Shown here piece by piece: positions 110-7,945 of a stretch of 20,365 bases of DNA; within the stretch, counting starts at the first letter, position 1; each line of letters starts with the position of its first letter. This DNA comes from a virus: IMG/VR virus record IMGVR_UViG_3300038327_000100, positions 1 to 20,365 of that record. The stretch is one strand, 5' to 3'. The translations under genes were made by a program, and so were the position numbers. Under the pieces are notes generated by a model. The model saw only the letters and a program-made list of their open reading frames with translations, made no database searches and was not told the origin of the DNA.

Positions 110-2143
110 ATGGGCATTCGTAGTTCTTTCTCCAACATAAGGAAAAATTTAACCAGTCTTAACAAGTCATACACAGAGACCACAGTACGTCCATCTATAG
201 CACAACCTTACATGAGTACCGATACCGGTGCCAAACTCCCAATTTTCCCATTCCCACTCATAATGATATATGAGTTGGCAGACAATATTGATGCTTTGAG
301 AATTCCTATTGAGACTATTAATCGTGAGATGTTCAAAAATGGATTCGAGATAGTCGAATCATGGAAGTACAAGTGTAACAACTGTGCCAAAGAGTTCCAA
401 TACAAGCCTCTTGCATCCGACATAGCGGACGAACAGCCAAATTCTACCAACGAGGACAACGAGTCAACAGTAGGTAGTACAACTACAAGTAAGGCACTGG
501 TCAAGAAAGAGACCGATTTCACTACAACTGAAGATGCAAGATCAAGAGAAGCCGGATTACAGTGTGATTATTGCCTGTCTACCGACTTGTTGAGACCCGA
601 ACCAACACACAGAAAGGTATTGGAAGGTATCTTGCATGACGAGGTTAACGGCAACGGACAAAGTTTTGAAGACATAGTAAGACAGTTGGAACGAGACCTG
701 GAAATTGCCGACAATGCATATCTGCTTGTGCTTAAAAACTACTTTATAGATGATACTACAAAAGAAATTGTACCTGAAAAGACAGAAATCAAAGAGTTGC
801 TTAGACTGGATCCGCCACAGGTAGCCATGATTGCCGACTCTGATGGTAGAATTGGATATGATGACAAGCATAATCCAGTATATGTATGTCCAAAATTCGA
901 ACACAGAAACAAAAGATTGGTAGAAGACCATTGTACCATCTGTGGAACCAAGGCATTGAAGGCTATGATAGAGGTAAACTCTGTATACTCAGTAGGAATA
1001 CCACAACCCAAGCGTGTTATCTATGGTGAAGGAGAGGTTATATTCAGGGCTGGTAAATACAAACCCGGCTTAATTTATGGATTCTCACCAATTTATGCAG
1101 TATGGAGTAAGGTAATGGCTTTGTCCCATATGGACGAGTATATTAGAAAATACTTTGACAAGATGAGACCACCAAGAGGAATGCTTGTAGTAGCCTCACG
1201 TAACTATGAAACCTTTAGAAAGTCATGGGACGTACTTGAACAAAAGGCACAGGAAGATCCTTACATGATTCACCCCCTACTTGTAGAGAGTGATAAGGGA
1301 AGTGCAGGTAACATGGCACAATGGCTTGACTTTACCGGTTCATTAAAAGAATTACAGTTTACAGAAATTAGAAGAGAACTCCGAATGATCATCGGTGCAA
1401 TTTATGGTGTGCTTCCACTTTACTTTGGTGAACTTCCAACTGGTTGGTCTCAAGAAGGACTTCAAGTTACAATTACAAACAGAGCCATTAAATGGGGACA
1501 GGAAATTTTACTTAACTCGTTCTTCAAAAAAATTGCAAAACTCAACGGTGTTACAGATTGGGAACTTCGATTAAAGACTGGTGAAGAAACAGACAAACTT
1601 AGAGACTTGCAAATTCAAGGTGTAGAGATTGAAAACATGAAATCACTACAAACATTAGGATTTGAAATTACTAGAACCCACACAGGTGAGTTCAAGGTAT
1701 CAAAGGATCCTGTCATCTCTTTGGAAGAAATGATGTTGGGTGATCAGGGAGGAGAGCCAGGAGAGAATATGAAAAAACCTGGAGGACGAGGTAGAGGTAC
1801 AGCAGCTCCTAAAGAAGACACTCAAAGATTTGAAGGAGAACCATCCCCTAACCAACCATCAAGAGTAGGTGGACTTATGCAAGGCAGTCCTCAAAAGAAA
1901 CCCGGTTCTCAGAACAAATCATTAGGTTTGGATGCAACTCCAAAGTTCCCTCAAGGCATTACGCCAACAAACTTTGAAATTGTAAAGTCAACATTACAGG
2001 ATGCAATAGACTTCCAATGGAACAAGGGAGACACGGTTGACAAATTAAGAAAGGAGGCAGGCATGACAGTAAGAGAGGCAAGAGATCTTGTAAAGACAGA
2101 ATTAGGAATGACAAGGAGGTGGGAAGATGAAGAAGAAAGCTAG
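110..2143 (+). CDS. Phage portal protein with zinc-binding inserts
   Basis: The portal is the dodecameric ring at the unique capsid vertex through which DNA enters and leaves and to which the tail attaches. The portal-like core is clearest at residues 320-480, with the stretches YAVWSKVMALSHMDEYIRKY, MRPPRGMLV and AIYGVLPLYFGE typical of archaeal and bacterial portal families. Two cysteine clusters are unusual: C89/C92 with C152/C155, separated by about 60 polar, probably disordered residues, and C260 with H265/H274/C275/C278. Both look like zinc-ribbon knuckles. Residues about 545-625 are Gly/Pro/Gln-rich, followed by a short helical tail ending in a run of acidic residues. At 677 residues it is longer than most portals, largely because of these inserts. 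The ATG start is supported by a TATA box 25.5 nt upstream. The next gene starts inside its 3' end. Confidence 0.85.
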   Translation: MGIRSSFSNIRKNLTSLNKSYTETTVRPSIAQPYMSTDTGAKLPIFPFPLIMIYELADNIDALRIPIETINREMFKNGFEIVESWKYKCNNCAKEFQYKPLASDIADEQPNSTNEDNESTVGSTTTSKALVKKETDFTTTEDARSREAGLQCDYCLSTDLLRPEPTHRKVLEGILHDEVNGNGQSFEDIVRQLERDLEIADNAYLLVLKNYFIDDTTKEIVPEKTEIKELLRLDPPQVAMIADSDGRIGYDDKHNPVYVCPKFEHRNKRLVEDHCTICGTKALKAMIEVNSVYSVGIPQPKRVIYGEGEVIFRAGKYKPGLIYGFSPIYAVWSKVMALSHMDEYIRKYFDKMRPPRGMLVVASRNYETFRKSWDVLEQKAQEDPYMIHPLLVESDKGSAGNMAQWLDFTGSLKELQFTEIRRELRMIIGAIYGVLPLYFGELPTGWSQEGLQVTITNRAIKWGQEILLNSFFKKIAKLNGVTDWELRLKTGEETDKLRDLQIQGVEIENMKSLQTLGFEITRTHTGEFKVSKDPVISLEEMMLGDQGGEPGENMKKPGGRGRGTAAPKEDTQRFEGEPSPNQPSRVGGLMQGSPQKKPGSQNKSLGLDATPKFPQGITPTNFEIVKSTLQDAIDFQWNKGDTVDKLRKEAGMTVREARDLVKTELGMTRRWEDEEES

Positions 2144-2817: not shown

Positions 2818-2965
2818 CCTTTGTTAATGAATTTCTTAATTTTGCCCATTCAACCAAATTGGGAACTCTAAGATTTTCTTCTATCTGTTCAAGCAGTTCG
2901 TTTGTCTTGGTCAGTTTTCTATTTGTTTCATTCAATAATTCTATAACCTTAAACATCCCTAACAT
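2798..2965 (-). CDS. Small coiled-coil protein, 55 aa, unknown
   Basis: This short minus-strand frame has good coding character. It reads MLGMFKVIELLNETNRKL and then a continuous charged helix with Leu/Ile heptad spacing through about residue 33 (TKTNELLEQIEENL), followed by a PNLVEWAKLRNSL helix. Its ATG overlaps the stop codon of the upstream minus-strand gene (ATGTTAG), so the two are probably a coupled two-gene operon. Its last seven codons overlap the 3' end of the plus-strand double zinc-ribbon gene. No family was recognised. A small coiled-coil partner of the upstream protein is a reasonable guess. The main doubt is its small size. Confidence 0.6.
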   Translation of the reverse strand: MLGMFKVIELLNETNRKLTKTNELLEQIEENLRVPNLVEWAKLRNSLTKVTSDKT

Positions 2966-3390
2966 GCTAACACCAAGTTTATTCTGTCTCTTACCAAATC
3001 ATAAAACCTATACTCATAGTTAATCTTCTTCTTACCTTTAACCTTTTCTCCATAATATCTTCCTATATTTATGGACATTAGGGGTTTTTTTAGAATTCTT
3101 GGATGTAATTCTAATAATTGTTTACAAGAATTGTACCTAATCTTGTCAAAAGTTATACAAATTTCGTCACCTTCCATATAATCCTCGGCAGAACCGTTCC
3201 TGAAATGTACTATTGTCTTTCTTAGTTCAGGTTTTTCCTTCAATTTACTGGTATTTGTGACTATCCAGAGCTTGCTACCCTTGATAAACATGTCTATAAG
3301 GTCTACATGATGCATTGGATTATCTGCAAACATACCATAAATACGTTTATATTCTGTCAAATTTTCGTAAATATGAAAAGATGATGCCAT
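2959..3390 (-). CDS. Unknown protein, minus-strand accessory gene
   Basis: This is a 143-residue soluble protein of no family I recognise, starting MASSFHIYENLTEYKRIYGM. It has mixed alpha/beta character, an LWIVTNTSKLKEKPELRKTI stretch near the middle and a basic patch (GEKVKGKKK) near residue 120. The start is placed at ATG 3390 and not at the TTG nine bases further upstream, because the palindromic TATA box at 3409-3418 is centred 23.5 nt from it. It is transcribed against the structural genes, with a coupled 55-residue gene behind it. Opposite orientation, its own promoter and its position inside the head module resemble a moron (an extra cargo gene), so a host-interaction or regulatory role is possible but unproven. 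Confidence 0.75.
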   Translation of the reverse strand: MASSFHIYENLTEYKRIYGMFADNPMHHVDLIDMFIKGSKLWIVTNTSKLKEKPELRKTIVHFRNGSAEDYMEGDEICITFDKIRYNSCKQLLELHPRILKKPLMSINIGRYYGEKVKGKKKINYEYRFYDLVRDRINLVLAC

Positions 3391-3408
3391 ACAAAACAAA
3401 CCTAATAC

Positions 3409-3418
3409 TTATTAATAA
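3409..3418. promoter_or_regulatory. Palindromic bidirectional TATA element
   Basis: TTATTAATAA is a perfect palindrome. Its centre (3413.5) is exactly 23.5 nt from the minus-strand ATG at 3390 and 23.5 nt from the plus-strand ATG at 3437. One TATA box could therefore direct leaderless transcription in both directions. Confidence 0.55.
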
Positions 3419-3436
3419 ATGATTGGTACCAAACTT

Positions 3437-3640
3437 ATGGAAGACATGATTGATTGTGAGTGTGGAAGCAAGAAATTCGGATACACTGACAAAACTAACA
3501 TTGTATATGTATGCTATGCATGTGGCAGATTCAAGGCTAGTAATATTGACAAGGATTTCTCTGAAATGTTAGAGGATGACCCTCTGGTATTATTGGGAAT
3601 GATAAGAGAAAGATATCTCGTACCTATTACAGATAAATAG
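3437..3640 (+). CDS. Small zinc-ribbon protein
   Basis: This is a 67-residue protein with a four-cysteine zinc ribbon, C7/C9 (CEC) and C26/C29 (CYAC), spaced like the ribbons of archaeal transcription factors and small DNA-binding proteins. An acidic helical tail follows (FSEMLEDDPLVLLGMIRERY). The start at 3437 is preferred because it lies 23.5 nt from the shared TATA palindrome. An in-frame ATG at 3419 would add six residues but sits almost inside the TATA element. It is divergent from the minus-strand pair, so it could be a regulator of that pair, but no DNA-recognition helix can be identified with certainty. Confidence 0.75.
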   Translation: MEDMIDCECGSKKFGYTDKTNIVYVCYACGRFKASNIDKDFSEMLEDDPLVLLGMIRERYLVPITDK

Positions 3641-3656: not shown

Positions 3657-3677
3657 TTAATGGGTACATTTAAATAC

Positions 3678-3926
3678 ATGGATCTGTTTTCATCTATACT
3701 TGAACCTTTGCTTTTGGCTACTCTTATAGGCATGGGCAGTGGATTATTTGCATTCTTTAGAAAAATGAGCAATACACAAAAGAGTTTATGTGAAACGGTA
3801 TCGAGACTACAAAAAACATTAATTATTCTAGCCAAGGCAGTAGACAGACAATCCAACAGATTACATCCGGAAAATGCAGATTCCGAACTGGATGACCTAG
3901 TAAAAGAATTGTTGAAAGATGATTGA
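3678..3926 (+). CDS. Small membrane protein with a coiled tail
   Basis: This 82-residue protein has one N-terminal hydrophobic helix (about residues 4-27, ILEPLLLATLIGMGSGLFAF). A basic and polar helical region follows (RKMSNTQKSLCETVSRLQKT and following), then an acidic C-terminus (DDLVKELLKDD). One N-terminal membrane anchor with a helical cytoplasmic tail is compatible with a holin-like, spanin-like or membrane-tethered accessory protein, but no family is recognised. The start is chosen from the TATA spacing; ATG 3660 would give 88 residues. Another membrane protein gene with its own promoter follows 64 nt downstream, so the two may act together. Confidence 0.65.
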   Translation: MDLFSSILEPLLLATLIGMGSGLFAFFRKMSNTQKSLCETVSRLQKTLIILAKAVDRQSNRLHPENADSELDDLVKELLKDD

Positions 3927-7639: not shown

Positions 7640-7647
7640 AATAATAC

Positions 7648-7655
7648 TTATATAT
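7648..7655 (+). promoter_or_regulatory. TATA box for the 89-aa head protein
   Basis: TTATATAT is centred 24.5 nt upstream of the ATG at 7676. Confidence 0.5.
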
Positions 7656-7675
7656 TATACTCATTATCAATATTT

Positions 7676-7945
7676 ATGGTTGAACTTAATCACAATGTAG
7701 TTAATATCAATTCAGATACCTTGATCAAAGGTGCTCACGGTGTAATTGTTGCTGTCAAAGTAATGAAGGCAGGTTCAAGTGGGGCTAAGATTGAACTAAG
7801 AAACGGTACAACTGGTTCCGCAGCTGTCGAGTTTACAGTCTTTGGAGAGGATGTCCAGGACTTGGGAAGCATTAACAGACGATTTGAAGCAGGTATATAT
7901 GCAGATGTCACAGGATCAGCAGAATATCTAATAATATTTAAATAG
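7676..7945 (+). CDS. Small beta-rich structural protein
   Basis: This 89-residue protein is predicted to be nearly all beta strand (GVIVAVKVMKAG, GAKIELRNGTTG, AVEFTVFGED, GIYADVTGSAEYLIIFK). This is the pattern of small jelly-roll or Ig-like accessory proteins found beside capsid genes in many marine tailed viruses. The family is not identified. A second decoration protein or a head fibre is the likely role. It has its own leaderless promoter. Its last codons and stop (TTT AAA TAG) double as the TATA box of the following connector gene. Confidence 0.65.
   Translation: MVELNHNVVNINSDTLIKGAHGVIVAVKVMKAGSSGAKIELRNGTTGSAAVEFTVFGEDVQDLGSINRRFEAGIYADVTGSAEYLIIFK
7931..7944 (+). promoter_or_regulatory. 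Extended TATA box for the connector gene
   Basis: ATAATATTTAAATA contains TTTAAATA at 7937-7944, centred 25.5 nt before the ATG at 7966. It overlaps the end of the upstream coding sequence. The same 14-mer occurs before the tail tube and glycine-rich fibre genes. Confidence 0.65.

Follow-up and report, generated by a model that had tools for sequence, protein, structure and literature searches.

The question raised by this locus is how two viral genes that diverge from a 46-bp gap are transcribed. The window (the whole stretch of DNA analysed, a 20-kb record of 20,365 nucleotides) is from a tailed virus; it contains a portal gene and encodes a major capsid protein having 24-25% identity to that of Haloarcula tailed viruses. 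The predicted structural genes are located on the plus strand and are interrupted by a single minus strand gene (2959-3390), the start of which faces a small plus strand gene (3437-3640) across the gap. An earlier note on this DNA had proposed that the intervening site is a bidirectional leaderless promoter. Comparison with related viral loci supports this proposal well, in that the putative boxes lie at -29, the core is kept and loci that lack the plus gene have a broken plus half. We therefore consider it very probable that the site is a real bidirectional leaderless promoter of the BRE-TATA-BRE kind. Promoters of this kind have been known in archaea before, and the present site, a well-conserved case, does not amount to evidence for a new switch.

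Table 1 Features of the divergent locus (window coordinates)
Feature	Position	Strand	Remarks
Minus gene, basic protein of unknown function, 143 aa	2959..3390	-	64 IMG/VR relatives; MA start invariant
Plus gene, acidic zinc-ribbon protein, 67 aa	3437..3640	+	Four cysteines invariant, 36 relatives; pLDDT 90
Core, two overlapping opposed TATA-like boxes, near-palindrome CTTATTAATAAA, contains TTATTAATAA	3408..3419		Conserved in relatives
TATA-like box of plus gene, CTTATTAA	3408..3415	+	First base -29 from ATG 3437; YTTAWW mode -29
TATA-like box of minus gene, TTTATTAA	3412..3419	-	First base -29 from ATG 3390; portal-gene octamer identical
BRE-like AATA upstream of plus box	3404..3407	+	AA at -33/-32; AA invariant, 37 relatives
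BRE-like AA upstream of minus box	3423..3424	-	-34/-33; plus-strand TT in 92% and 81% of 37
Predicted leaderless transcription start of minus gene	3390	-	A of ATG
Predicted leaderless transcription start of plus gene	3437	+	A of ATG

The 10-mer TTATTAATAA is read directly from the sequence at 3409-3418. Its centre (3413.5) is 23.5 nt from the minus ATG (3390) and 23.5 nt from the plus ATG (3437), which bears out the description of an exactly symmetric palindrome between divergent starts. The rarity of a perfect palindrome was dropped as the chief argument for function, because the motif by itself falls within chance. A perfect 10-bp palindrome occurs at any given window centre with a frequency of about 0.001, 0.17 exact copies of the 10-mer are expected per window, and copies having no more than one mismatch number 5 versus 4.4 expected. 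The 10-mer alone is unremarkable and its symmetry in isolation is a modest coincidence. The exact numbers behind the 23.5-nt symmetry need nothing beyond the ordinary -29 rule described below, since two start codons separated by 47 bp, each with a standard box at -29, will necessarily have boxes that share 4 bp and appear symmetric. What makes the site more than chance is its conservation in 42 distinct related intergenic sequences.

The geometry is sensitive to the choice of start codons. The longest plus strand open reading frame begins at an in-frame ATG at 3419, and use of that codon would break the symmetry. ATG 3419 is kept in the closest relatives only and is absent from L014, L015, and other distant relatives, which retain a start equivalent to 3437. 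Hence, we rejected ATG 3419 and assigned the plus start to ATG 3437. Bases 3419-3436 also vary among close relatives at amino-acid-changing positions. For the minus gene, the Met-Ala start at ATG 3390 is invariant in 39 of 39 aligned relatives, unlike the in-frame TTG at 3399, which is unsupported as a start.

The yardstick for promoter spacing was a set of 380 other upstream regions taken from the same viral loci. The hexamer YTTAWW begins at -29 in 107 of these regions and at -30 in 59; no other position comes near these counts, and thus most of the genes appear leaderless, with predicted transcription starts at the A of the ATG. A pyrimidine is present at -1 in 73% of the regions. Judged by this mode, each half of the divergent site (hexamers CTTATT for the plus gene and TTTATT for the minus gene) is placed like an ordinary leaderless promoter, and so this feature of leaderless genes is found on both strands. 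Within the window, TTTATTAA also lies at -29 of the portal gene, where it serves as a putative one-way promoter. Gene 7676 (region 7643-7676) has AATACTTATATA, with its box at -29, and AATACTTAT occurs both there and in the plus half of the site between the divergent genes; boxes resembling that of gene 7676 precede other genes in L003, L005, and L017. At 3660-3678 of the window, ATG 3678 has TTTAAATA at -29 and is probably the true start of the gene that was listed as beginning at 3660. In four relatives (L017, L018, L021, and L043) the conserved string TTAGTGAGAG lies about 30 nt beyond a box of the AATACTTATWT type and may mark a leaderless GTG start.

The earlier note suggested a single TATA box serving both directions. 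A shared site is indeed present, but in place of one box it consists of two overlapping opposed boxes: within 3408-3419 TATA-like boxes can be read on both strands with an overlap of 4 bp. A BRE-like element flanks the pair on each outer side, the AA of the plus side being invariant and that of the minus side present in 81-92% of relatives. One-way promoters are also A-rich at the positions matching the plus side AATA.

Relatives were found in IMG/VR by use of a profile of the minus protein, which gave 64 loci. Together with the window these yielded the 42 distinct intergenic sequences, 37 of which have the zinc-ribbon gene opposite. When aligned on the box, the 16-bp core of the zinc-gene loci reads AATACTTATTWATAAA and is almost invariant, although their minus proteins are down to 37% identical to that of the window, and CTTATTWATAAA, with AA/TT at both outer ends, is nearly invariant in the same 37 distinct relatives. 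At least 1.5 bits of information is found at 15 of the 16 core positions, and further out there is a conserved TT (AA on the minus strand). Outside the box and BRE positions conservation does not exceed 0.85 bit. The two halves are equally well conserved. The divergent site carries about 29 bits over the 16 positions versus 19-24 bits for orthologous one-way promoters of the same loci, which fade after 8 bp, whereas the divergent site is informative throughout.

Whether the spacing is kept in relatives has a divided answer. The minus ATG is 18 nt from the 10-mer (19 or 20 nt in some loci). In the TTAATAA-type loci (n=21) the plus start is exactly 18 nt away in 19, a count that includes the short plus strand open reading frames of L015, L046, and L061 (ATG or GTG at 18). 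Both gaps are 18 nt in 18 of these 21 loci, and an exact mirror is thereby kept in 18 of the 37 zinc-gene loci. In the TTTATAA-type loci (n=16), however, the plus gap is 19-22 nt, 1-4 nt longer, and therefore exact symmetry is confined to part of the family; in these relatives the plus start may carry a leader of 1-4 nt. Near-symmetry is a property of nearly the whole family. L064 keeps the zinc gene, but its plus box is altered to CTTGTT and its plus start is 10 nt away.

On the plus side of L015, L046, and L061 the short open reading frame located exactly 18 nt from the box has its own paired cysteine motifs and precedes the main zinc-ribbon reading frame. It starts with ATG in L015 and with GTG in L046 and L061, an arrangement that resembles the insertion or the splitting of a second ribbon. 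Elsewhere in two of the loci a minus-type gene and a double-zinc gene converge; the two genes overlap tail to tail by 4 bp in L015 (6438-6441) and are separated by about 300 bp in L014.

A scan of IMG/VR for the exact architecture led us to re-read 61 sites among the matches listed, with 19 family hits among the flanking proteins. Most of the other re-read sites among those matches had no open frames on both sides, and thus the bare pattern is not diagnostic. Among the other divergent gene pairs of the loci, which were picked mechanically and are mostly differently spaced, no second family with a shared box was found.

Loci that lack the zinc gene form five groups (L038, L047/L048, L068/L069, L059/L060, and L070). 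In three of these the plus half is broken, reading TTGATT in L038, CTTACA in L047, and ACTATT in L068, and the minus half and its 18-nt gap are intact. The next plus strand gene of L038 and L047 has its own box at -29. In L059 and L070 the divergent region is rearranged and the box of the next plus gene lies at -28 or -30. Absence of the zinc gene requires four changes on an unrooted tree of the minus proteins, and well-supported branches force at least two of them; as the root is not fixed, the changes could be losses or gains of the zinc gene.

The structure model of the plus protein (pLDDT 90) consists of one zinc ribbon and, after it, two short helices, and it has weak structural likeness to the ribbons of RNA polymerase subunits and of elongation factors including ELOF1. 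Weak Pfam rows below cut-off (HNH_5, ArfGap, and zf-UBP) were taken as generic ribbon similarity. The suggestion that this protein is a DNA-binding product that makes the site a switch found no support: the protein is small and acidic (net charge -4; positively charged in only 9 of 36 relatives), and searches of Pfam, PHROGs, NCBIfam, PDB sequences, and folds gave no DNA-binding family. We set aside the zinc ribbon as a DNA-binding switch following these family, PDB, and fold searches. The minus protein has a confident, mostly beta model and is basic in 39 of 39 relatives. It gave no family and no clear fold match (best Foldseek E 0.95, best Z 2.6), which does not indicate a new fold. Relatives of the minus protein were found neither in genome contigs, by a pattern-limited search, nor in public phage records. 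Family and fold searches gave a DNA-binding family or fold for neither product of the divergent pair.

What is seen directly is the sequence, its geometry, its conservation, and the breakage of one half in loci without one of the genes, and together these suggest how the site would work. Each strand of a 12-bp near-palindrome carries a TATA-like box with its own outer BRE-like AA, the two boxes having 4 bp in common, and host TBP and TFB would assemble there in either orientation, probably as only one complex at a time per DNA molecule. RNA polymerase would then initiate at a distance of about 29 nt, where the A of each ATG lies, and the two resulting leaderless mRNAs would encode the basic minus protein and the zinc-ribbon protein, respectively. 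An extension of this scheme is an either/or device, in which a single pre-initiation complex forms per genome copy, the non-optimal plus box sets the ratio of the two outcomes, and a viral product tips the balance during infection. We consider such a device unlikely; were it to exist, the basic minus protein would be a likelier viral product than the acidic zinc ribbon.

Two other explanations of the palindrome were weighed against the bidirectional promoter. The palindrome might be mainly an operator, at which a viral or host regulator, perhaps a dimer, covers both promoters, with the invariance of the site reflecting the regulator. The sixth base of the plus box argues for this, as it is T in 37 of 37 loci and A in 93% of the one-way boxes at -29, and the one-way promoter consensus does not account for the invariant T. 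The ideal double box TTTATATATAAA was never seen among the 37 zinc-gene loci, the divergent site is more conserved than the other promoters of the family, and the consistently basic minus protein would also suit an operator. However, each half sits exactly at the position required of a promoter box, conservation drops outside the box and BRE positions, and the halves are lost separately, which is not predicted for the operator of a symmetric dimer. Given also the acidic zinc ribbon and the lack of a DNA-binding family or fold for either protein, an operator as the main function seems very improbable. Under the promoter reading, the sixth T may limit the strength of the plus promoter or contribute to the choice of orientation.

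The least probable explanation, in our judgement, is that only the minus gene starts at the site, that the plus gene starts at ATG 3419 or is transcribed from another promoter, and that the palindrome is an AT-rich accident. The in-frame ATG at 3419, the plus spacing that in part of the family is looser than the minus spacing, and the tendency of AT-rich archaeal TATA elements to be symmetric by nature (PMC6640164) would all fit this explanation. Yet distant relatives do without ATG 3419, and the plus half is conserved like the minus half and is broken in loci without the plus gene. Moreover, the gene directly upstream is on the other strand, and so no plus strand operon is seen leading in. 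The bidirectional promoter is the reading that we retain.

One of the relatives bears on the host. L015, which comes from a 48.5-kb contig, encodes just beyond its major capsid gene an amoC-like protein of 187 aa (538-1101, minus strand) that scores E 2.5e-14 in NCBIfam, below the curated cut-off of the bacterial model. Given this gene near the capsid gene, ammonia-oxidising archaea are probably the hosts of at least the L015 virus, and we infer such a host for the window virus itself. Descriptions of archaeal bidirectional promoters have for the most part treated them as generators of antisense noise. The putative bidirectional promoter of this locus is maintained across a wide virus family, the genes that flank it are both conserved, and natural variants appear to have lost only one direction. 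This combination makes the site a clean test bed for the choice of orientation by TBP and TFB. The -29 rule is in addition a simple aid to finding start codons in these little-studied tailed viruses.

Bidirectional initiation has precedents in three systems. In E. coli, bidirectional sigma-70 promoters are built on the -10 element, and their basal transcription is so low that one direction does not compete with the other (PMC12825309); the principle is the same, but the -10 element stands in place of TBP and TFB. Halovirus HF2 has a conserved bidirectional region (T-17064/T-17022) with outward starts 42 nt apart (PMC8707807). Like the window virus, HF2 is a tailed archaeal virus with outward starts (predicted ones here) around closely spaced boxes in a region conserved in related viruses. 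Unlike the single 12-bp near-palindrome of the present site, the HF2 region has three 12-bp direct repeats and several candidate boxes, and the two viruses have unrelated hosts. The closest likeness is to Pyrococcus furiosus, in which bidirectional BRE-TATA-BRE promoters have been described; the binding of TBP to the TATA box is symmetric, direction is determined by TFB, and the PF1918 promoter gave both transcripts in vitro from starts 49 bp apart (PMC6640164). In PF1918 and in the present site alike, a near-symmetric TATA element is flanked by BREs (BRE-like elements here) and the outward starts are at nearly the same distance, 49 bp in PF1918 and a predicted 47 bp here. The difference is that the second P. 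furiosus transcript is antisense and thought to be non-functional, whereas both directions here enter conserved protein genes that are probably leaderless. The present site carries every feature of the archaeal bidirectional BRE-TATA-BRE kind that can be tested in sequence.
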